The translations under genes and the position numbers were made by a program. A stretch of 64,000 nt of DNA, from positions 1-64,000 of the forward strand of contig JACYLN010000045.1 in NCBI GenBank assembly GCA_015272515.1, written 5' to 3'. The notes under the pieces are model-generated. The model did no database searches, was not told the origin of the DNA, and was given only the letters and a program-made list of their open reading frames with translations. Origin of the DNA: Leptolyngbyaceae cyanobacterium C42_A2020_001. GTDB taxonomy: Bacteria; Cyanobacteriota; Cyanobacteriia; Leptolyngbyales; Leptolyngbyaceae. This document shows positions 6,622 to 63,472 of this stretch, in pieces. Position 1 is the stretch's first letter. Every line of letters begins with the position of its first letter.

Positions 6622-8103
6622 ATGAAAGCCATGATGGTAGTGGGAACCACATCCCACGCAGGTAAATCGCTCCTGGTAACGGCTATTTGTCGTATTTTGA
6701 GTCGGCGTGGTTGGCGAGTGTCGCCCTTTAAAGGACAAAACATGGCGCTCAATGCCTATGTCACAAGCAGCGGCGGCGAAATTGGCCATGCACAAGCAGT
6801 GCAGGCTTGGGCAGCGGGAATCATGCCATTGGTTGAGATGAATCCAATTTTGCTAAAACCGCAAGGTGACATGACTTCCCAGGTAATTCTCAAGGGCAAA
6901 CCTGTGGGGCGAGTGAATGCGGCGGAATATTACGAGCAATATTTTGACCAGGGCTGGCAAACCATTGAGGAGTCAATCAAACGGCTGTCTGAAGAATATG
7001 ATCTACTCGTGTGTGAAGGGGCAGGTAGCCCAGCCGAAATCAATCTAAAGCATCGCGACTTAACCAATATGCGGGTGGCTAAACACCTGAATGCCCCAAC
7101 ACTGCTGGTGGTAGATATTGATCGGGGTGGCGCATTTGCCCATATCGTTGGTACGTTGGAACTGCTCGACCCCGATGAACGCGACCTGATCAAAGGCATT
7201 GTGATTAACAAGTTTCGAGGGCAGCGATCGCTGCTGCAACCAGGGATTGACTGGCTGCAAGAACGCACTGGCATTCCTGTTGTTGGGGTCATCCCCTGGC
7301 TGGATCAAGCCTTCCCAGCAGAAGATTCTCTCAGCTTGTTAGAGCCTCGCGCTTCTAATTCCAACAGCGCCATTAACATCGCCGTGATTCGGCTACCTCG
7401 CATTTCCAACTTCACCGACTTTGATCCCCTGGAGGCAGAATCTTCTGTCTCCGTGAAATACATCACGCCTAAGCCTCCCCTCGGTCATCCCGATGCTGTG
7501 ATTATTCCTGGTTCTAAGACAACGATCGCTGACTTGATCGTGCTCCATAGAACGGGCATGGCAGAAGAAATTCAAAACTATGTAGCAGCGGGTGGCACGG
7601 TTTTAGGAATTTGCGGAGGGTATCAAATGTTAGGCAAGATCCTGGCAGATCCCGAAGGGATTGAAGGGCAGGAAGGACGTTACAAAGGTTTGGGGTTACT
7701 GCCCTTAAAGACTGTAATCGCCGGACAAAAAATTGCCCGTCAGCGTGTAGTCACCTCCAACTATCCCCAGGAAGGGCTACCTGTGACCGGTTACGAAATT
7801 CACCAGGGGCGATCGCGCTTGATGGAAGAAGCCACAGGCACCAATCCCCTATTTGATGATGCCAATCTAGGCGTAGTAGATGAAAGCCAATCGGTTTGGG
7901 GTACTTACCTGCACGGTATTTTTGATAATGGTCCCTGGCGCAGAGCATGGCTGAACCGCTTACGGCAACAGCGCGGCTTAAAATCCCTTCCCACAGGGGT
8001 TGCCAACTATCGGGAGCAGCGCGAAATGATGCTCGATATCCTGGCGGATATGGTGGAACCCCACCTGAACCTGACCCCATTTTTGCCTAAAGAAACAGCT
8101 TGA
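6622..8103 (+). CDS. cobQ: Cobyric acid synthase
   Basis: ATP- and glutamine-dependent amidase of cobalamin or pseudocobalamin synthesis; it amidates peripheral carboxylates of adenosyl-cobyrinic acid a,c-diamide. At 493 residues it has the usual length. The N-terminal synthetase domain begins with the P-loop-like VVGTTSHAGKSLL (residues 5-17). The C-terminal class I glutamine amidotransferase has its nucleophile C331 in GICGGYQML and its histidine H431 in YLHGIFD. The ATG at 6622 is preceded by GGGGAACCCTA, a weak ribosome binding site. No other cob genes are in the window, as is usual for cyanobacteria with scattered B12 genes. Confidence 0.95.
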   Translation: MKAMMVVGTTSHAGKSLLVTAICRILSRRGWRVSPFKGQNMALNAYVTSSGGEIGHAQAVQAWAAGIMPLVEMNPILLKPQGDMTSQVILKGKPVGRVNAAEYYEQYFDQGWQTIEESIKRLSEEYDLLVCEGAGSPAEINLKHRDLTNMRVAKHLNAPTLLVVDIDRGGAFAHIVGTLELLDPDERDLIKGIVINKFRGQRSLLQPGIDWLQERTGIPVVGVIPWLDQAFPAEDSLSLLEPRASNSNSAINIAVIRLPRISNFTDFDPLEAESSVSVKYITPKPPLGHPDAVIIPGSKTTIADLIVLHRTGMAEEIQNYVAAGGTVLGICGGYQMLGKILADPEGIEGQEGRYKGLGLLPLKTVIAGQKIARQRVVTSNYPQEGLPVTGYEIHQGRSRLMEEATGTNPLFDDANLGVVDESQSVWGTYLHGIFDNGPWRRAWLNRLRQQRGLKSLPTGVANYREQREMMLDILADMVEPHLNLTPFLPKETA

Positions 8104-8201
8104 ACCAGGGTTTAATTCAGACATTAGCCATTCCGCTTTAGTTTTCAACTCAAAGACGGTTGCTGTAGCATGGTTGAGTCCTGCTATCGGTTCAATGGAC
8201 G

Positions 8202-9314
8202 ATGTCTCTGGGTTCTCGTGTAAATGCTGCATTAGCAGCGATGAATGTGCAGTTTGTGAGAAAAACTGGGCTGGAACGGTTAAGAGCACTGGAACAGGAG
8301 TTTCAAGCCCTTTTAAGCGAGTATCAGGCGTTAAAATCTCGCCACGAACGCTTGAGCAATCGCCTGCATTTACCAGAAAAATTTTTTGAGCTATATCCCC
8401 ACTCGCGTCCCCTACTGCCCGATGGAGCCAATTATTTTCTAATCGATAGCAACACGCGCTTGACGGAGTTAACCCAGCGTTATCGAGCCGTGAACCATCC
8501 GGTGATGAATGCCTCCATGTGGACGGATGAGTTTGTGCATGAGGAGATTGATCTGCACGGGTTTCGGGCGGATGGTGGTTATGTCTGGCAGCATCGCGAG
8601 ATCAACACCGATCTGCACTACGCCCTCTGCGCGTACTATTTAAAATCCATCGACACATTGGGATTGTTTGAAAAACTGACCGAAGATACGCTGTTTGGAG
8701 CCTACACCGTGAAGGTCAGCGATCGCCCCGTCAGCCGCGACCTGCTTGACTCCATGACCGAAATTTATTTTCTGGAACGGCACCTTGCCATTTCCCAACG
8801 CCCCAACCTGACTATTCTCGACATTGGCGCAGGCTACGGACGGCTCGCCCATCGCCTGGCACAATCTCTATCCAATTTGGGAACCGTATTTTGCACCGAT
8901 GCGATCGCCGTCTCCTCCTTCTTGTGTGAGTACTACCTGCAATTTCGAGGTGTCAATCAAACCGCGATCGCCGTTCCCTTTGATGAACTGCGAACCACCC
9001 TGACGCAGAATTCGGTCGCTATCGCCATCAACATTCACAGCTTTTCTGAGTGCAGCCTGGACGCGATCGCGGGTTGGCTCGATCTCCTGACAGAGTTTGC
9101 CATTCCCCACATCATGATCGTGCCAAACGAACTCGACAACGGCGGCACCCAACTACTCTCCTGCGAAAAAGATAAAACCCGCATCAACTATCAACCCCTG
9201 CTGGAGCAGCGAGGATACCAGCTCATTGCCTGCGATCCCAAATTTCTCGACCCGACCGTGCAAGCAAATGGCGTATCCCCAACTCACCACTTCCTCTTCC
9301 AAAAATGCGTATGA
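8202..9314 (+). CDS. Putative sugar O-methyltransferase
   Basis: Protein of 370 residues with a short N-terminal coiled-coil-like segment (about 24-52, LRALEQEFQALLSEYQALKS). The Rossmann methyltransferase core starts at LTILDIGAGYGRLAHRLA (residues 203-220), where DIGAGYG is SAM motif I. The overall layout resembles the putative sugar O-methyltransferase family found with surface-polysaccharide genes. The acceptor is unknown. The gene stands alone between cobQ and a ferredoxin, so context does not help. The C-terminal half lacks other domains I recognise. Confidence 0.65.
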   Translation: MSLGSRVNAALAAMNVQFVRKTGLERLRALEQEFQALLSEYQALKSRHERLSNRLHLPEKFFELYPHSRPLLPDGANYFLIDSNTRLTELTQRYRAVNHPVMNASMWTDEFVHEEIDLHGFRADGGYVWQHREINTDLHYALCAYYLKSIDTLGLFEKLTEDTLFGAYTVKVSDRPVSRDLLDSMTEIYFLERHLAISQRPNLTILDIGAGYGRLAHRLAQSLSNLGTVFCTDAIAVSSFLCEYYLQFRGVNQTAIAVPFDELRTTLTQNSVAIAINIHSFSECSLDAIAGWLDLLTEFAIPHIMIVPNELDNGGTQLLSCEKDKTRINYQPLLEQRGYQLIACDPKFLDPTVQANGVSPTHHFLFQKCV

Positions 9315-42366: not shown

Positions 42367-43281
42367 ATGGTGTCGGAAGTGGTGGCGGAATCACGGGGGC
42401 GCAGGTGGGCAAATCACCGAGTCTTGCTGATTGGGCTATGGCTCACCCTGATGATGCTGGCAATCAAAGTTTGGGTCGGTTGGGGCACGCGATCGCTGAG
42501 TTTAGCATCCGATGCCTTGCATACTCTGGTCACAAGTTTTAGTTTGCTGCTGAGTTTGCTCGCAGTCTCGGCTCCTTGCTCGGCAAAACGGGCAGCGACC
42601 GGGCATACGCGGCTAGAGTCGGGGTTGACGCTGATACTGGTGGGCTTTTTGGGCGCGTCTTACTGTTTTTTGGTGGGGGTAGCGGTAGAGCAAATCGGCT
42701 TTTTGGGCAATACAGATTCTGCAACCAGCCAGGTGAATAGCCCAATCTTGCAACTGTTGGGCGGGATGGTGCTCGTTAGCTTGGGGTTGAGTTTGTTTGG
42801 GCGGCATCAGGCACTAACGCTGGAAAATGCCATGCTGCGCTTTAGTTTTAGCCAAAGTCTGCAAGATGCGGGTTTGCTGGCGTTGGTGTTTGCCGGGTTG
42901 GTGGGGGTGCAGGCGGGAATTGCCTGGCTCGATCTAGCGTTGACGGTGGTGGTGTTACTGGTGGTGTCGTTCAACATTTGGCGGATTGTGAATTGGCAAT
43001 TGCCATCGATGGTGCAACAAACGGCGATCGCCCCGGAAGCGATCGCTAAAACAGCGCGACGAGTGGAGGGAATCCTGCACTGTTACGGCATTCACTCGCG
43101 CGGCATGGTGGGTCGCATGATTTACGTGGAACTGCGGCTGATCGTGCATCCAGAGTGTGTGGCAGTGGCTCCGGCGATCGTGCAGCGGGTTGAACGGTTA
43201 ATCATGCAACAGTACGGTCCAGCGAAGGTTGTGGTTCAAGTGGATGATTCACCAGGGAGTGCCGATCATCGTAAAGGATGA
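42367..43281 (+). CDS. CDF-like transporter with altered metal ligands
   Basis: About 304 residues with six spans: the layout and SLSLASDALHTLVTSFSLLLSLLAV segment are those of cation diffusion facilitators. In canonical members the second span has HxxxD or DxxxD; here it reads HTLVT, so the second acid is replaced by threonine. The matching motif in span five (LQDAGLLALVFAGLVGVQAG) also lacks the usual His-x3-Asp. The C-terminal cytoplasmic domain (GILHCYGIHSRGMVGRMIYVELRLIVHP) is kept. It may transport a different ion or be a non-transporting relative. The start ATG at 42367 follows a long leader. The 3' end overlaps the convergent giant ORF by 33 bp. Confidence 0.7.
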   Translation: MVSEVVAESRGRRWANHRVLLIGLWLTLMMLAIKVWVGWGTRSLSLASDALHTLVTSFSLLLSLLAVSAPCSAKRAATGHTRLESGLTLILVGFLGASYCFLVGVAVEQIGFLGNTDSATSQVNSPILQLLGGMVLVSLGLSLFGRHQALTLENAMLRFSFSQSLQDAGLLALVFAGLVGVQAGIAWLDLALTVVVLLVVSFNIWRIVNWQLPSMVQQTAIAPEAIAKTARRVEGILHCYGIHSRGMVGRMIYVELRLIVHPECVAVAPAIVQRVERLIMQQYGPAKVVVQVDDSPGSADHRKG

Positions 43282-46200
43282 CCAGTAGTAGGGATGAATC
43301 AGTTTTTCGTCGCGGGTGGGAGAGTCTTCTGGTAAGGGAATTCCGATGGGTTCCACCCCTTGAATTTGATTGTTTTGGATAAACACTTGCCCGCGAATCA
43401 TTGCCAGTTGGGTTTGCTGGAGCGCTTCTGCTTTAATCCGAGCTGTTTGCAAGTCTTTATAAAAGCGGGTGATCAGAGCAGTAGTTGCCGCATCGTTGAC
43501 TGCCCACAAACTGGCGAGTGCTGATTTCACGCCGGATTGCACTGCCAAACCGCCAAAGCCTAGTTCTGCTTCGCGATCGCCTAACGCAGTGGAACAGGCG
43601 CTCAACACCAGCAGTTGCACTTGCGGATCGTTCCAGCCCAATTGTCGAATTTGATCCAGTTGCAACCGTTGATCCCAAAGTTGAATGTAGGAATCGGATA
43701 AGCTTCCAGGCAGAAAATCGGCGTGGGTGGCAAGATGAATGATGCCATAGGGGCGTTTCTGGCGGGCTGATTTCAAGGTTGAAAGCGTTGCTGTTTGATT
43801 CAAAAACGCACTTCCCGACCACAGGGTATTGACTAGCGTTGCTACTTCAACCTGTACTGATGGCAGCGGTTCTTGTCCCTGAACGCCCTCAGAAATGCCC
43901 AGGGTTAACAGTTGAGCATCTTTAATGTCTTGGTAGCGGGTGTCGGCAAGGCTAACACTGGGCATCAAGCCAATGCTGTATTGTTCCACTAAAAACTGCT
44001 GTCCATTGTGCAGGGCTGCTACAGGGAGCGATCGCAATCCCGTATCCAGCAAAAACACCAGGTTGTTGATCTGGCGGGTCTTCAATTCTGGCTGCACGGG
44101 GGCGATAAACCAGCGATAGAATTGCTGCGCCATCGGCAAGTAGGTTGTTGAGCGAGTCTTGCGCGGATCGGATACCTCCTGCCGGAACTGATCTGCTAGT
44201 TGCATCACGGCGGCGCGGGTTGCCTGGGGAATGCGTCTGCGAATCGCGTTACCCTGGGCGGTGACGATCAGCACTTCTAATTGATCATCGGGGTGTTCGG
44301 CGATCGCGCTGGATGTTTCGGCTCCAGCCACCAAGCCTGCCACACTGGCAGCGTTTAATGAAGCTGGCACAAAACTGACGTAAACAAACGCGGGTTTAAT
44401 TCCTGTCTCACGCTCAACCTGACGCAAAATGTTGCGCTGCTCATCAACCGCGACCACATTGGGAGTGGGCAAACCCAGATAAGCAACAAAATCGGCAGTG
44501 AATCGGGCTTCTGGCGTATTGGGAATCAAAACGTCAGCCGATGCAGCGGGAAGAGTTGGATTGATGGGTGTTCTGGGAGTGCAACTGGTGAGAATGCAGG
44601 TAGGGTTATCAAAGGTGGGATTAGTGGGATTGGTGGGATTGGTGGGATTGGTGGGTTCAGTGCCGATGGTAAGGGCGATCGCGCGGGGTGCTGAGGTGGA
44701 AATTACATCATCCACCGTTACCGAAAAAGCATTGGTCAACGTGCCGACAAATCCCGCTGGTGGCACATACTCCAGCGTGGCATCGGCAGGAATCAGCGTA
44801 CCTGGAACCGCAACGACTCCATTAATTCGCAATGTGGCTCCCGGCGCGATCGCCACCACCCGCACAAATCGATTATCTGCATTCAAATCTTCTGTCGTAA
44901 TACCCAACACCGCTACGGTTAAATTTACAGGCTGGTTGACAGTCGTTGTTGGCAATGAGTTGACTGCGGTGATGCTGGGTGTGTCGTTGGTGAAAGTAAT
45001 GCTGATATTGCCGCCCGGTGACACAAATGGACTGGCGGAGAAATCAAACGTCCCCGACGCAATCAACTCCGTGCCGCCCGTGTTGATATCTGCTGCCGTG
45101 CCGTTGGTAACACCCGCCCCTGCTCCCACCACAAACGATTCGTTCGTAATACCGCCATCATGTTGAATTTGCACAATGCCGCCCGTACCGCCGTTTGCGC
45201 CCCCCGTGGCGATCGTTGCCCCATTTGCCAACGTGCCAAAGCCCTGTACCTGTCCCCTGGCTGAGATAATCACATTGCCACCATTCACCGCAGGATCCTC
45301 ACCAGCTCCCTGTACGTCGATGGTTTCAAAGCGAATGTCGCCGCCATTGCTCAAAGTTTGCAGGGTTACCGTGTTACCAGCGATCGGATCAATCGTGAAG
45401 GGATCTGCTGTTGACGCAATCGCGCCTACGGTAATACTGCCTCCCCTACTCGTAACTGAAATTGCACCAGCCGTCGCTATCCCGTTATACCCGTAGCCAT
45501 TGCCAATCAGGTTGCCTGCAACAATGTTGCCCGTCGCTTCCAGGGTAATGTTGCCCCCATTACCAGACCCCAAGAAGGAAATCGCTGTGGTATCAATATT
45601 GCCCAGGGTCAGCGTATTGCCCGTGAGGGAAACATTTCGTCCTGGAGCCAGGATTGTGTCGCTGGCATCCATCGTAATCGCGCCGCCCGCCTCAAAAGTG
45701 ACATTGCCCGTTCCTGGTTGAAAGCCGAGAAGATTATCCGCTAAATCCTGAATGGTGATGGCATTGGTTGCCTGCAAAATCACATTCGCAGTTCCAGCAA
45801 GAGCTTCCAATGCCTGCTCAGAAATGGTGAAAGATGCGGCTCCCCCATCGGCGGCAAGAATTTGTCCGTCTAACACTTCTGCGTCGTCTGCGCCTGCTCC
45901 GCCGTCAACAATGGTGATGTTCACCGGGTCGAGGAGCAGGGTTCCGGTTTGCCCATTCGCCGCCCGCACATCCACATCGCCGCGAAACATTAGAGTTTCC
46001 TTCCCCGACACTTCCACAAACCCGCCATCGCCCTTCGATGCCCCACCCCACGCGTTGATCATGCCTGCAAACGTCGTATTTTGATCTGCCCAGATGATTA
46101 CCCGTCCGCCGTTACCAGTTTGCAGGGCATTGGCGTTAATCGTAGAATCTCGACTGACGAAGGTTTGACGGGCAGTGGGGAGGGTGCCCTGCCCCTGATA

Positions 46201-47991
46201 ATCCCCCCCTACATAGACTGAGCCGCCCCCATTCGCGCCAGAGGCATTGAGGGACGCGCCTACCAGTCCGACCTGGTTTCCTATCACCGCGATCGCGCCT
46301 CCGGTTTGTCCCGATGTATCGAGGTTGCCGCTAGCGATCGCCGTTCCAACCGTGGTGGGAATCGTCACTCCACTCACTAACCGCACAGAGCCATCGGGAT
46401 TGACGGTTAAGCCTGTAGCATTGCCCAAATTGCCGCCCGTGAGTAGTTGAGGCAGGGAGGGGGGAGGTGAGGCAGGTGAGGGAGAGGGGGAGGTAGGGAT
46501 GAATTCCAGGCTGAGTAAGTTTCCTGGCTGGCTGAGGCGAACGAAATTTTGCCCCGGCACAGCGGAGATCAGAATTTGCCCATCGGGAGCCATGAGTTGC
46601 CCGGTGTTGACCACGGTGCCGCCAATCAACGCCAACGTTTGCCCGGAAGCGACGGCAAGATTGCCTGCATTGACGATCGCTCCCGCTTGGCTGGTGTTGA
46701 AGCTGAAGCCGTTGGGTGATCCGACTAATGCCGCGTAGTTATTACTTCCAGTTGCATTGAACCATTCGCAGCCTGTCCCCGCTGGGCCGCAGCCAAAGCC
46801 AATGCTGTTTGCCGTAGTTGCGGTGAAGGCGGCGGGCACATTCAGGCTGGCATTGGGACCAAACACTATTCCGGCAGGATTCAGCAGGTACAGGTTGGGG
46901 CTACCGCCGGAAACTTGAATCAGCCCGTCGATGATCGAGGGATTGTTGCCAACCACGCGCCCCAGAATATTTTGCAGTTGGGGGTTGGCAATGAAGTTGG
47001 CGATTTGCCCCTGGGTTAGCCCAAACTGCTCAAAGCTGTGGAAGAGATTCGTGCCATTGCTGGAAACGGTGCCGCCCGTGATGTCTAACCGATTTCCAGC
47101 AGGGGTGACAATGGTGTTGGTACCATCGTTGGCAGGGGTAATGGATTGGGCATGGACGGCTCCAGCTTGAACACTGAGCAGCGGTACAGCCGCCAGGAAC
47201 GGTGCCAGTTTTGCCGAAGCAAGCTTGCTGGTGGACAGTCGTTTCAAGGTGAAGCGCCCCGTGGCAATATCCAGATCGATCGCGTGGGTGGTTGCCATGC
47301 CTCGCCGCTGCAATGCCCGCTTGAGAATGGCATGGGTGCGGAGGGTTTGCTCCAGCTTAAATTCTTGAGAGGCACTATTGCTGTGAACCCGGTAGAAGTA
47401 AAGCGGCTGGGGAATGCGCTGGATTTGCGTCACTTCGGAGAGGCGCAGACAGAGATCGTAATCCTCCACAAAGTCGAGTGCTCCCTCCATGCCGCCCACC
47501 TGCTGATATAGCGATCGCCGCAGCAACCGAAAGTGGAACGTCATGAAGTCCAGCAGTAGGCGATTTTTGGAGTAGGGAATGCGGCAACGCTGCCCATATT
47601 GGAGAATACGCCCCTGCTCATCCATGTCGTAATAGTCGGTGTAGACCATGCCCACCGATGGACAGGCATCGAGCCGTTGCACGGTTTCTGCCAGCGCGGT
47701 TGGAGCCAGGCGATCGTCACTGTCTACCCAGCCCAGGTAAGTGCCTTGTGTTTGGGCGATCGCGTCTGCCAAAGCCGCCACCCGTCCCTGATGATTCGCT
47801 GCCACCACTCGCACTCGCGTGTCCCGTCGGGCATAGGCTTGTGCTAACGCAACTGACCCATCGGTTGAACCGTCATCCCATACCAGCAACTCAAAGTTTG
47901 AGTAAGTTTGCTGCAAAACGCTGGCGATAGCGGCTCCCAGAAACCGTTCCCGGTTGTAGGTTGTGATGATGAGCGAAACAAGCGGACGCAT
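43249..47991 (-). CDS. GT2 glycosyltransferase - TPS haemagglutinin - CHAT protease fusion
   Basis: Uninterrupted ORF of 1580 residues. Residues 1-235 form a GT2 glycosyltransferase (VSLIITTYNRERFL, WDDGSTDGS, GWVDSDDRL, FVEDYDLCLRL). A signal-peptide-like segment follows (KLAPFLAAVPLLSVQAGAVHAQS, about 261-282), then a TPS haemagglutinin domain (GTNLFHSFEQF, NPAGIVFGPNASL, about 283-500) and a long beta-rich region. After a (NPT)n stretch near residue 1120, the C-terminus is a CHAT caspase-like domain with H1423 in HLATHADF and C1466 in LSACSTALGD. A start at M232 (47298) would yield a normal TPS-CHAT protein, but its ribosome binding site is weak. The GT2 start has GGGAG upstream. Confidence 0.85.
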   Translation of the reverse strand: MRPLVSLIITTYNRERFLGAAIASVLQQTYSNFELLVWDDGSTDGSVALAQAYARRDTRVRVVAANHQGRVAALADAIAQTQGTYLGWVDSDDRLAPTALAETVQRLDACPSVGMVYTDYYDMDEQGRILQYGQRCRIPYSKNRLLLDFMTFHFRLLRRSLYQQVGGMEGALDFVEDYDLCLRLSEVTQIQRIPQPLYFYRVHSNSASQEFKLEQTLRTHAILKRALQRRGMATTHAIDLDIATGRFTLKRLSTSKLASAKLAPFLAAVPLLSVQAGAVHAQSITPANDGTNTIVTPAGNRLDITGGTVSSNGTNLFHSFEQFGLTQGQIANFIANPQLQNILGRVVGNNPSIIDGLIQVSGGSPNLYLLNPAGIVFGPNASLNVPAAFTATTANSIGFGCGPAGTGCEWFNATGSNNYAALVGSPNGFSFNTSQAGAIVNAGNLAVASGQTLALIGGTVVNTGQLMAPDGQILISAVPGQNFVRLSQPGNLLSLEFIPTSPSPSPASPPPSLPQLLTGGNLGNATGLTVNPDGSVRLVSGVTIPTTVGTAIASGNLDTSGQTGGAIAVIGNQVGLVGASLNASGANGGGSVYVGGDYQGQGTLPTARQTFVSRDSTINANALQTGNGGRVIIWADQNTTFAGMINAWGGASKGDGGFVEVSGKETLMFRGDVDVRAANGQTGTLLLDPVNITIVDGGAGADDAEVLDGQILAADGGAASFTISEQALEALAGTANVILQATNAITIQDLADNLLGFQPGTGNVTFEAGGAITMDASDTILAPGRNVSLTGNTLTLGNIDTTAISFLGSGNGGNITLEATGNIVAGNLIGNGYGYNGIATAGAISVTSRGGSITVGAIASTADPFTIDPIAGNTVTLQTLSNGGDIRFETIDVQGAGEDPAVNGGNVIISARGQVQGFGTLANGATIATGGANGGTGGIVQIQHDGGITNESFVVGAGAGVTNGTAADINTGGTELIASGTFDFSASPFVSPGGNISITFTNDTPSITAVNSLPTTTVNQPVNLTVAVLGITTEDLNADNRFVRVVAIAPGATLRINGVVAVPGTLIPADATLEYVPPAGFVGTLTNAFSVTVDDVISTSAPRAIALTIGTEPTNPTNPTNPTNPTFDNPTCILTSCTPRTPINPTLPAASADVLIPNTPEARFTADFVAYLGLPTPNVVAVDEQRNILRQVERETGIKPAFVYVSFVPASLNAASVAGLVAGAETSSAIAEHPDDQLEVLIVTAQGNAIRRRIPQATRAAVMQLADQFRQEVSDPRKTRSTTYLPMAQQFYRWFIAPVQPELKTRQINNLVFLLDTGLRSLPVAALHNGQQFLVEQYSIGLMPSVSLADTRYQDIKDAQLLTLGISEGVQGQEPLPSVQVEVATLVNTLWSGSAFLNQTATLSTLKSARQKRPYGIIHLATHADFLPGSLSDSYIQLWDQRLQLDQIRQLGWNDPQVQLLVLSACSTALGDREAELGFGGLAVQSGVKSALASLWAVNDAATTALITRFYKDLQTARIKAEALQQTQLAMIRGQVFIQNNQIQGVEPIGIPLPEDSPTRDEKLIHPYYWSSFTMIGTPW

Positions 47992-48084: not shown

Positions 48085-48669
48085 TTATGCCAACTGCCAC
48101 TCACTGCTGGGTCGGCGTTGATAAATGCCGTTGTTACGCTGCATCATCTGGTAACCAATCAGCTCTCGACGCAGGGTGGCGCAGTCGGGGTGGTGACGTT
48201 TGATGATGTTGTTCAGCGTCGATTCAGGATAGGGGAGATTTGGGTCAAATTGGTTCACGAGCCACTTTAGAATTACCCAACGTTTCTTACGACTGGCAGG
48301 AATTTCTTTGATGCGATCGCCCTCCAAAAAGTTGCTCAACACCTTCGTTTCCCAGGCATCTTCTTCAACGCCGCTACTCAACGCCACCATTTGCTCAGGG
48401 GTCAAAATCGCTTTACTAAGAGTTTGAAGCGTATCGCTGCTGAGCTTGTAGAGATGGGTGTTGCCATCGGGACGCATTTGCACTAATTCCAATTCCTTCA
48501 GCTTTGCCAAATGATGAGAAATGGTCGGTTCTTTCAGGTTGAGCAGTACCGCCAGTTCTTCTACGCTGCACTCCTGCTGCGACAAAATCCCCAAAAGTTT
48601 GAGGCGGCTTTCGTTCGACAACGCCTTGAAAAACTGCAAGAGCGTGTTCAAATTTTCAGTTTGCATCAC
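48085..48669 (-). CDS. ArsR-family regulator with DUF2087 domain
   Basis: Protein of 194 residues. The N-terminal winged helix (LLQFFKALSNESRLKLLGILSQQECSVEELAVLLNLKEPTISHHLAKLKELELV) is ArsR type. The C-terminal DUF2087 domain (about 115-185, KKRWVILKWLVNQFDPNLPYPESTLNNIIKRHHPDCATLRRELIGYQMM) is a common fusion, role unknown. It has no metal-binding cysteines in the helix (only one Cys near residue 33), so it may not sense metal. A perfect 10-bp inverted repeat lies just ahead of the start and overlaps the stop of the amidase gene, consistent with autoregulation. Confidence 0.85.
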   Translation of the reverse strand: MMQTENLNTLLQFFKALSNESRLKLLGILSQQECSVEELAVLLNLKEPTISHHLAKLKELELVQMRPDGNTHLYKLSSDTLQTLSKAILTPEQMVALSSGVEEDAWETKVLSNFLEGDRIKEIPASRKKRWVILKWLVNQFDPNLPYPESTLNNIIKRHHPDCATLRRELIGYQMMQRNNGIYQRRPSSEWQLA

Positions 48670-61031: not shown

Positions 61032-63359
61032 TTAAGGGATGAGGGGCGGGGGGTGAGGGCAGGAGAGAGTGGCAAACAGGGGAAGGGATGCGGCGGGGCG
61101 AGGGGGATGGGCAACGAGAACGGTCTCTCCAGTTTGATCCACTACCCAGCCCTGCGCTTCGATGATAGGAGATGGGGGATAGGGGATAGGGGATAGGGAA
61201 GGGGGAGAGGGTGAGGTGGAAGAGTGGGTGGGTGGATGGGTGGGTGGAATTTCATGCACTTGCTTACTCGTCCACTCCCTCACTCCTCTACCTCCCTCAT
61301 TTTCCCGACCTCCCTCATCACGTCTGACTTCTGACTTCTGACTTCTGACTCCTGCCTCCTGAACTCCTGCTTGCGATGCGATCGCGGGTTCAACTAACTG
61401 CGCCAACTCCACCAGCGGATTATTGAGCAGCAATGCTTCTTCTGGATAGGTTGGCAAGCCGCCCCGTCCAGTTACAACAAAGCGGTTCAGTCTATTGCTG
61501 GCGGAACAACCCACCACAATTTGATTGGATGGATCAACGAGGGTGGTGGATAAGGCATCAACTCCGCGACTGGGATCGAGATCAGGGGTGCTGAGAATGA
61601 CTGTGCCACTGACTCCAAACTGAGAACTGGCAGTAATGTCGCTGAATGGGGTGGGGCGGGGCTGAAATTTTAAGCCGTAGATGCCCTGAGCCGTGATGGA
61701 GACTCTGCCCCCTCTGCCCGTAAACGCATTGGCGCTGATGTCGCTATTTTCGGTCAGTACTCCCAGCACAAACGGAGTGCTGAGGGTAATGTTGCCGCCA
61801 TTGCCCCCTGCCCCAATTCCGCCTGCGGTGGTTGAGATCGTGCCGCTATTGCGTAACAGTACATACTCACGGGCATTCAGGGTAATGTTGCCGCCGTCGC
61901 CGTTGCTGGTTGTGGCTGCAATTTGTCCGCGATCGCTGAGGATGAGTTTTCCCGTGTTGATGGTAATATCGCCTGCGTTGCCGCCGAGGGGTGTTTCATT
62001 GCTGACAATCAATCCGCTGGGAAAGGGAGTACCTGTGGCACTCCGAAGTACTGGATCAACGCCAGAAATTGTGACCGTATCGGCTACGTCGATCGCTACG
62101 TTGCCTGCATCCCCTCTACCTCCCTGCACCACGGCTGCTGCAATTTGGGCACCACTGGTTAAGGAGAGCGATCTCGCCTGGATTCGGATTGTGCCGCCAT
62201 TGCCGATCGCCGTCTCGCGGACAGAACTGCGAATGCCTGTGGTTTCGCCTAGTTCAATAGAATCTTGCACTTGAATGATAATATTTCCGGCATTTCCTTG
62301 TCCTAGCGTGCTGGTGTTGAGTTGGGCGCGAGATTGCATCACCAGATTGTTGGCGCGAATAACAATGCTGCCGCCCGATCCCACCGCTTGAGCCGTTAAC
62401 ACTCCATTGAACAGGTTGCTGCCCTGGGCCAGGGTGACCGTTCCCGTCGCATCAATTTCAATGTTTCCTGCTTGGGCTGCGGCTCCAGTTTGGTTAATCC
62501 CCACGGTCAGAGGACTGGCAGCAATCGTCAAGTTTTGGGCTGCGATCGCAATATTTCCCCCGCCCAACGCCCGCACATCGATCGCCGAACGATTTAAAGC
62601 AACATTGGCGCGGCTACTATCTGCTGGCAAGATTAGCCGAAAATCTCCGCCTAAGTTAATCAATCCAGCCGTTGCCAGCCCACCCAACTCCACCCGGCCA
62701 CCTGGTGCGGTTAGTCTGGCTCCATCCAGGGATACTTCTCCCCCAACCAGGGCTAAGGTTTTCCCAGTAGGGACGGTGAGGCGAGCGTTCGCGGTGATTG
62801 GGGCAGGCGCAAGCTGACTGTAGAACAATGCGGATGGATTGACTGTGAGCAAGGATGAGGGTAAAACGGGTGCAACGGCACTGAAGCGATCGCCGTTGGG
62901 AAATACTACGTCACTGGCAGTCGTAGCCACAAACGACCCACCCAGCGACAACTGCGCGTTTGGTCCAAAAATCATGCCACTGGGATTGATCAGAAATAGA
63001 TTGGCAGTCCCATCCACTCGGACTGTGCCCAAAATGGTAGAGGCTTGCCCACCCGTCACCCGACTGAAAATGGTTTGAATTTGAGTTGGAGGGCTGAAGC
63101 GTGCCGTCTGCCCCTCTCCAACGGAAAAGGTTGAAAAGCTGTGAAAGAGATTGCTGCCACGCACCGCTCCACCCTCGATCAAAAAAGTGTTGGCGGCGGG
63201 TTGGGTAACCTGAGAAAATTCGTTGCCTAAGGTGGCATCTGCCGCAATTTGAGCTGGAACTGGTAACGCAGCCGCGATCGCCCACCCTGGAAATACACAA
63301 AAACAGACAAGACGGCTCCAAAACACTTGAACACATCGTCTTGTCTGCTTACGCTTCAT
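61032..63359 (-). CDS. TPS exoprotein with filamentous haemagglutinin N-terminal domain
   Basis: About 775 residues. Signal peptide (WSRLVCFCVFPGWAIAAALPVPAQ), then the haemagglutination TPS domain (GSNLFHSFSTFSVGEGQ, NPSGMIFGPNAQLSLGG) that the partner pore recognises, then beta-helix-type repeats rich in GGNITIN and AGNIxI, and a C-terminal GWVVDQTGETVLVAHPP that is common to cyanobacterial TPS proteins. Residues about 690-760 are a low-complexity insertion encoded by repeat DNA. It has no CHAT domain. I chose the ATG at 63359; the longer frame starts at 63431. No TpsB gene is in the window. A 45-residue secreted peptide lies just upstream on the same strand. Confidence 0.85.
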   Translation of the reverse strand: MKRKQTRRCVQVFWSRLVCFCVFPGWAIAAALPVPAQIAADATLGNEFSQVTQPAANTFLIEGGAVRGSNLFHSFSTFSVGEGQTARFSPPTQIQTIFSRVTGGQASTILGTVRVDGTANLFLINPSGMIFGPNAQLSLGGSFVATTASDVVFPNGDRFSAVAPVLPSSLLTVNPSALFYSQLAPAPITANARLTVPTGKTLALVGGEVSLDGARLTAPGGRVELGGLATAGLINLGGDFRLILPADSSRANVALNRSAIDVRALGGGNIAIAAQNLTIAASPLTVGINQTGAAAQAGNIEIDATGTVTLAQGSNLFNGVLTAQAVGSGGSIVIRANNLVMQSRAQLNTSTLGQGNAGNIIIQVQDSIELGETTGIRSSVRETAIGNGGTIRIQARSLSLTSGAQIAAAVVQGGRGDAGNVAIDVADTVTISGVDPVLRSATGTPFPSGLIVSNETPLGGNAGDITINTGKLILSDRGQIAATTSNGDGGNITLNAREYVLLRNSGTISTTAGGIGAGGNGGNITLSTPFVLGVLTENSDISANAFTGRGGRVSITAQGIYGLKFQPRPTPFSDITASSQFGVSGTVILSTPDLDPSRGVDALSTTLVDPSNQIVVGCSASNRLNRFVVTGRGGLPTYPEEALLLNNPLVELAQLVEPAIASQAGVQEAGVRSQKSEVRRDEGGRENEGGRGVREWTSKQVHEIPPTHPPTHSSTSPSPPSLSPIPYPPSPIIEAQGWVVDQTGETVLVAHPPRPAASLPLFATLSCPHPPPLIP
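61150..61320. repeat. Palindromic G-rich/C-rich element inside the TPS gene
   Basis: G-rich left half (GGGGGATAGGGGATAGGGG, GTGGGTGGGTGGATGG), centre GGAATTTCAT (61246-61255), C-rich right half (CTTACTCGTCCACTCCCTC...). Same plan as 35418 and 39717. Next to it at 61324-61352 lie four 7-bp units of the type CTGACTT. All are read in frame as part of the TPS tail. Confidence 0.65.
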
Positions 63360-63472
63360 GATTTTTATGCTAATGGGGAGTAGAGGGCGGCAGGCACATC
63401 TAAAGAGCCGCAAAATCCGATTGGTACGCAACGAATCACAAATCGGTTAGCCCTACTCCAGAATTCCCACTT

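Follow-up and report, generated by a model that had tools for sequence, protein, structure and literature searches.

TpsA proteins of two-partner secretion (TPS) systems are generally assumed to start with a signal peptide, and the glycosyltransferases of adhesins to be separate genes. In the best comparable systems, HMW1C and EtpC are separate cytoplasmic enzymes of glycosyltransferase family 41 (GT41), which glycosylate the TpsA adhesins HMW1 and EtpA (PMC3983070, PMC5422565). Here we analyzed a stretch of 64,000 nucleotides from Leptolyngbyaceae cyanobacterium C42_A2020_001 (contig JACYLN010000045.1, positions 1 to 64,000; in the following, the window), in which one gene joins a family 2 glycosyltransferase (GT2), an internal signal peptide, a TPS domain and a CHAT domain. 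On balance, we favor the interpretation that this gene belongs to a two-partner secretion system in which the TpsA protein brings its own cytoplasmic glycosyltransferase. The enzyme would be parted from its cargo by signal peptidase and most likely glycosylates its own passenger. Two-partner secretion of this kind, with the transferase built in and the signal peptide internal, is undescribed in the literature searched, and no paper was found on CHAT domains in combination with two-partner secretion or haemagglutinin or on an internal signal peptide with a cytoplasmic domain, with most subscription journals outside the coverage. In one study of phage resistance, the mutated surface genes include one for a filamentous haemagglutinin N-terminal protein, with no tie to GT2-TPS-CHAT (PMC10811720).

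Like the window protein and its relatives, HMW1ABC and EtpBAC combine a TpsA protein, a TpsB protein and a cytoplasmic glycosyltransferase, and sequence matches link the TPS region of the window to the EtpA structures. In contrast, their transferase is encoded by a separate GT41 gene and has a GT-B fold, whereas the GT2 of the window (GT-A fold) is located at the N-terminus of the TpsA protein before the signal peptide, and the passenger carries a CHAT domain. Membership in GT41/HMW1C was ruled out, as the domain is a GT2 with GT-A fold and not a GT-B enzyme with an AAD domain, but by analogy we are slightly inclined to assume that it works like HMW1C. Cyanobacterial TPS-CHAT proteins without GT2 (22 compared, including G000:C112 from the genome of the window) share the signal peptide and both the TPS and the CHAT domain with the fusions, but their signal peptide is N-terminal. 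Additional cytoplasmic sequence before the TpsA signal core is also found in FhaB-type extended signal peptides (PMC5422565), although this extension is short in FhaB, while a whole folded enzyme is present in the window protein. Chondroitin polymerase K4CP (2z86) resembles the GT2 with its second half, in fold and in aspartate motifs, but the identity is about 26% and K4CP is not fused to a secreted protein.

The fused protein and its internal signal peptide

The open reading frame (ORF) of 1580 codons without a stop, which had been described in the original prediction, was confirmed; it lies on the minus strand at 47991-43249, and the scores of all three Pfam domains are well over the cut-off (Table 1). 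An AlphaFold model, for which an alignment of 57 sequences served as input, contains a confident GT2 fold at residues 1-251, a low-confidence segment resembling a signal peptide at residues 255-280 and the TPS beta-helix from residue 282. The prediction of a signal-peptide-like segment in the middle of the protein (about 261-282), followed by a TPS and a CHAT domain with His1423 and Cys1466, is therefore in agreement with Pfam, the model and the alignment. It was also right in calling the GT2 domain complete, whereas its end had been placed too early at residue 235 and lies at about residue 252. The model has a C-terminal beta hairpin at residues 236-251, and because standalone GT2s of the same subfamily (about 252 residues) finish at the same tail, the GT2 part of the fusion is complete.

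The nearest solved folds, according to sequence matches and Foldseek, are K4CP (2z86/2z87) and other GT-A enzymes. The GT-A fold with a DxD motif and a catalytic acidic residue, which defines a GT2, is present as judged by Pfam, AlphaFold/Foldseek and the conserved residues D90, D92, D93 and D177. In detail, D39, D40, D90, D92 and D93 are invariant in all 57 aligned fusions and residue 177 is an aspartate in 56 of them, and the ratio of non-synonymous to synonymous substitutions (dN/dS) of the GT2 part is about 0.1-0.25 in most pairs. The CHAT domain (PF12770) contains the expected His/Cys dyad, and neither residue varies across an alignment of 23 full-length fused proteins. Judged by these residues, the GT2 and the CHAT domain both look intact as enzymes.

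The internal signal peptide is composed of a basic n-region, the hydrophobic core LAPFLAAVPLL and a signal peptidase site after residue 281 (VHA followed by Q). As is typical for a TpsA protein, the TPS domain is located right behind this Sec signal, though the signal is internal rather than N-terminal. The 57-row alignment was made without presupposing a signal peptidase motif, and yet every fusion has A, V or T at position -3 and A, T, S or G at position -1, followed by Q in 56, and the mean hydrophobicity of the core is 2.23 in fused versus 2.15 in unfused TPS-CHAT proteins. For linker and signal peptide together, dN/dS is 0.16 between the window and G002 and 0.25 between the window and G001, and other pairs are mostly in the range of 0.06-0.32, with one outlier of 0.61. 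According to these comparisons, the linker is under purifying selection and the internal signal peptide is conserved as a cleavable signal. The linkers of the fused set contain 210 and 111 stops in the other two frames and, by construction, none in frame. The spacing is variable: in L191, L192 and L194 the GT2 helix continues directly into the signal core, and in the fused loci L075, L080 and L082 a hydrophobic stretch is located immediately behind the GT2, with a spacer ahead of the TPS domain.

Distribution and history of the fusion

A first search in 39 genomes revealed 27 loci with GT2 and TPS in one ORF, and of the 80 best-scoring named GT2 loci (217 matched), 58 are fused in this way. 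After removal of duplicates, the same architecture is present in 68 distinct loci, 58 of which run in frame to the CHAT domain within the fetched DNA. The fusion occurs in Leptolyngbya, Stenomitos, Tildeniella, Nostoc, Anabaena, Calothrix, Tolypothrix, Coleofasciculus, Trichocoleus, Phormidium and a member of the Xenococcaceae. The families represented are the Leptolyngbyaceae, Oculatellaceae, Nostocaceae, Calotrichaceae, Tolypothrichaceae, Coleofasciculaceae, Trichocoleusaceae, Oscillatoriaceae and Xenococcaceae. As it was detected in at least 12 of 386 genomes evenly sampled from the phylum, the fusion is a minority trait.

Neighboring GT2 and TPS-CHAT genes parted by a clean stop were not found among the loci compared, which speaks against a simple operon read-through of two genes. 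The only split pairs (L106 and L074) both have further frame breaks downstream, and L091 and L115 appear as solo genes due to contig ends. The original prediction had named separate GT2 and TPS-CHAT genes in close relatives as its refutation, and by this criterion the fusion stands. In about 34 loci, mainly from Nostocales, a TpsB gene is arranged head-to-head with the GT2 end; as the intergenic region between the two genes lies before the GT2, this end is the natural start of the gene. A cognate TpsB (POTRA_2) gene is seen in these homologous loci, and not in the neighborhood in the window. As far as can be judged from the sequences, the fusion is real, old and maintained by selection.

In a tree of the GT2 domains, in which 35 of 95 inner branches are unresolved, 23 standalone GT2s form a clade of their own and most fused forms group apart. 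A single old fusion followed by repeated losses would fit the data, and multiple gains of the GT2 are a possible alternative history. The family also includes unusual members. The Xenococcaceae locus L149 (7004-14743) contains an ORF of more than 2580 amino acids with GT2 and two TPS domains, which extends beyond the fetched stretch, and genome G007 (L073, L074, L086, L087) harbors many GT2 copies, several of them frame-broken, which gives the impression that the family is both growing in number and decaying there.

Sugar acceptor and alternative explanations

We propose that the gene encodes the TpsA exoprotein of a two-partner secretion system, which would be produced as a polyprotein-like precursor; that the three domains are made as one translated chain is very probable. 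The GT2 would be translated first and fold in the cytoplasm. Next, Sec would recognize the internal signal peptide, and cleavage by signal peptidase I behind residue 281 is likely. The GT2 would then remain on the cytoplasmic side, where the remnant of the signal peptide probably anchors it in the membrane. The part consisting of TPS domain, passenger and CHAT domain would exit through a TpsB pore to the surface, where CHAT may act as a surface-bound or released protease. Before or during export, the GT2 most likely adds sugar to its own passenger in cis, although we prefer the passenger as acceptor only by a small degree. A glycosyltransferase modifying its own exported partner had been the first option of the original prediction, and it is the best reading of a selected in-frame fusion with intact enzyme residues, a conserved cleavable signal and a head-to-head TpsB gene in many relatives, with the passenger as candidate acceptor.

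The surroundings of standalone GT2s are relevant here. In this subfamily, such genes are often located near type I secretion system (T1SS) genes (ABC-C39 and HlyD in L165, ABC-C39 in L199), near core-domain or baseplate genes of extracellular contractile injection systems (eCIS; L158, L165, L169), near genes for giant proteins with RTX/Calx-beta, Ig-like or CARDB domains (L138, L155, L160) and near very large "polymorphic membrane protein" genes on Calothrix and Aulosira plasmids. The contractile-injection neighbors of L158, L165 and L169 were identified by a Pfam scan, those of L127, L150, L156 and L168 by look-alike ORFs. Together with the fusion to TpsA, these neighbors suggest glycosylation of exported proteins. 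It might even be that a one-chain polyprotein with a glycosyltransferase and its own CHAT substrate at 1:1, modified in cis, and standalone GT2s serving T1SS, contractile injection and giant extracellular proteins represent a new class of export-linked protein glycosyltransferases, but this wider idea is tentative.

Several observations weigh against the proposed model. No TpsB gene adjoins the locus in the window, and five POTRA_2 matches are located elsewhere in its genome. In the TPS-CHAT tree, where fused and unfused forms interleave, well-supported branches carry three or more changes, and the GT2 is therefore dispensable in some lineages. Glutamate 176 of the ED motif is, unlike D177, variable (E in 34, Y in 16 and Q in 6 of 57), and the proximity of standalone GT2s to export loci comes from inspection of this subfamily alone. 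Furthermore, the excess of N-glycosylation sequons over shuffled sequence is small (1.18-fold in fused versus 1.09-fold in unfused passengers), so that sequon enrichment was rejected as weak and driven by composition, and no acceptor motif is evident from these counts in the fused passengers. Finally, the solved GT2 structures that come closest belong to polysaccharide synthases (K4CP, heparosan synthase), so that the acceptor may also be a glycan or a lipid-linked molecule.

The last point leads to the strongest competing explanation, in which the same precursor and cleavage yield a membrane-tethered GT2 that builds a polysaccharide or lipid-linked glycan, 1:1 with a surface CHAT protein whose passenger stays unmodified. 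Chondroitin and heparosan synthases and SpsA are the closest solved structures, and several standalone relatives are tandem GT2-GT2 proteins, both of which favor this explanation. However, most of the inspected standalone loci lie beside genes for protein export, eCIS and giant extracellular proteins and not in obvious polysaccharide clusters, and the fusion of GT2 to TpsA would be left unexplained; we regard this explanation as rather unlikely. Even less probable is a GT2 that is mainly a cytoplasmic N-terminal cap or chaperone, delaying or timing export of the long passenger, with catalysis being secondary. The extended signal peptide of FhaB indeed slows export and delays cleavage (PMC5422565), and a large N-terminal cytoplasmic domain would retard Sec engagement, but the five invariant aspartates and the low dN/dS of the GT2 are as for an active enzyme.

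We also considered two products, a full-length GT2 chain and a more abundant TPS-CHAT chain whose translation would begin internally at Met232 or another codon, corresponding to the read-through pair with a start at 47298 of the original prediction. The window and a few relatives do have an ATG at Met232, and the signal peptide resembles that of unfused TPS-CHAT proteins. Yet this residue, which is part of the C-terminal GT2 tail also present in standalone GT2s, is a methionine in only 3 of 57 fused homologs, and a start-capable codon occupies the site in 17 of 67. In the stretch that separates the GT2 from the signal core, 30 of 67 fusions lack any candidate start (ATG, GTG and TTG were counted, not ATT or CTG) and 52 of 67 have no ATG, as compared with 0 of 22 unfused TPS-CHAT controls lacking a start before the signal core. 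Neither start codons (ATG 1.5% in the linker versus 1.4% inside the GT2) nor Shine-Dalgarno-like motifs (7/190 versus 33/765) are enriched in the linker. As the frame and the linker are in addition selected, an internal translation start is unlikely, and two products seem to us still less plausible than a mere cap. A stop-codon loss, misassembly or pseudogene confined to one genome, for which one could only cite the two split or broken relatives (L074, and L106 from a metagenome-assembled contig of 4x coverage), is practically out of the question in view of 68 in-frame loci in close and distant relatives, including the single-contig genomes G002 and G015, and the invariant key residues of both enzymes.

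Many filamentous cyanobacteria carry this fusion. If one chain with glycosylation in cis is indeed what the gene provides, the enzyme probably decorates its own cargo before the cargo leaves the cell, with a ratio of enzyme to cargo fixed at 1:1. The bacterial Sec pathway would then routinely accept precursors in which a complete folded enzyme precedes an internal signal that is cleaved off, and cis-glycosylation of exported proteins could readily be studied with the fusion. It would also point to an uncharacterized GT2 subfamily tied to several secretion systems and give a testable role to surface CHAT domains in multicellular cyanobacteria.

Features of the locus and further observations

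Table 1. Position of the fused gene and its parts in the window, with the basis of each assignment.
Feature	Residues	Position	Strand	Basis or remark
Whole GT2-TPS-CHAT gene	1580 codons + stop	43249..47991	(-)	orthologs with 83% (G002) and 69% (G001) identity, both same genus
GT2 glycosyltransferase domain, C-terminal hairpin tail included	1-252	47236..47991	(-)	Pfam Glycos_transf_2 at 6-165 (4e-30), AlphaFold, standalone GT2s
Met232 codon (ATG), judged not a start	232	47296..47298	(-)	Met in 3/57
Linker and internal signal peptide	253-281	47149..47235	(-)	core hydrophobicity, -3/-1 residues, dN/dS
TPS secretion domain	286-491	46519..47136	(-)	Pfam PF05860 at 286-491 (9e-40); PDB sequence matches EtpA 8vba/8cpk
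Passenger: repetitive region, then Thr/Pro/Asn-rich linker (NPTNPTNPTNP)	492-1285	44137..46518	(-)	translation, by eye
CHAT domain	1286-1577	43261..44136	(-)	Pfam PF12770 at 1286-1577 (1.3e-67)
CHAT His1423 codon	1423	43723..43725	(-)	invariant in 23 fused homologs
CHAT Cys1466 codon	1466	43594..43596	(-)	invariant in 23 fused homologs

Immediately upstream of the fused gene and on the same strand, the window contains a gene for a protein with an ArsR-type helix-turn-helix and DUF2087 (48085-48669, minus strand), which was not found in the other loci compared. The cation-efflux gene downstream is common to three close relatives. A second TPS-domain protein of about 804 amino acids without CHAT is encoded at 61032-63446 on the minus strand.

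Among the standalone GT2s, some adjoin Phage_base_V, Baseplate_J and eCIS_core genes not only in cyanobacteria, but also in Desulfosarcina. Two others (L198 and L199, each at 8001-8759) are located beside genes of about 31 kb and are labeled "filamentous hemagglutinin outer membrane protein", which is probably a transitive annotation error originating from the fused genes.
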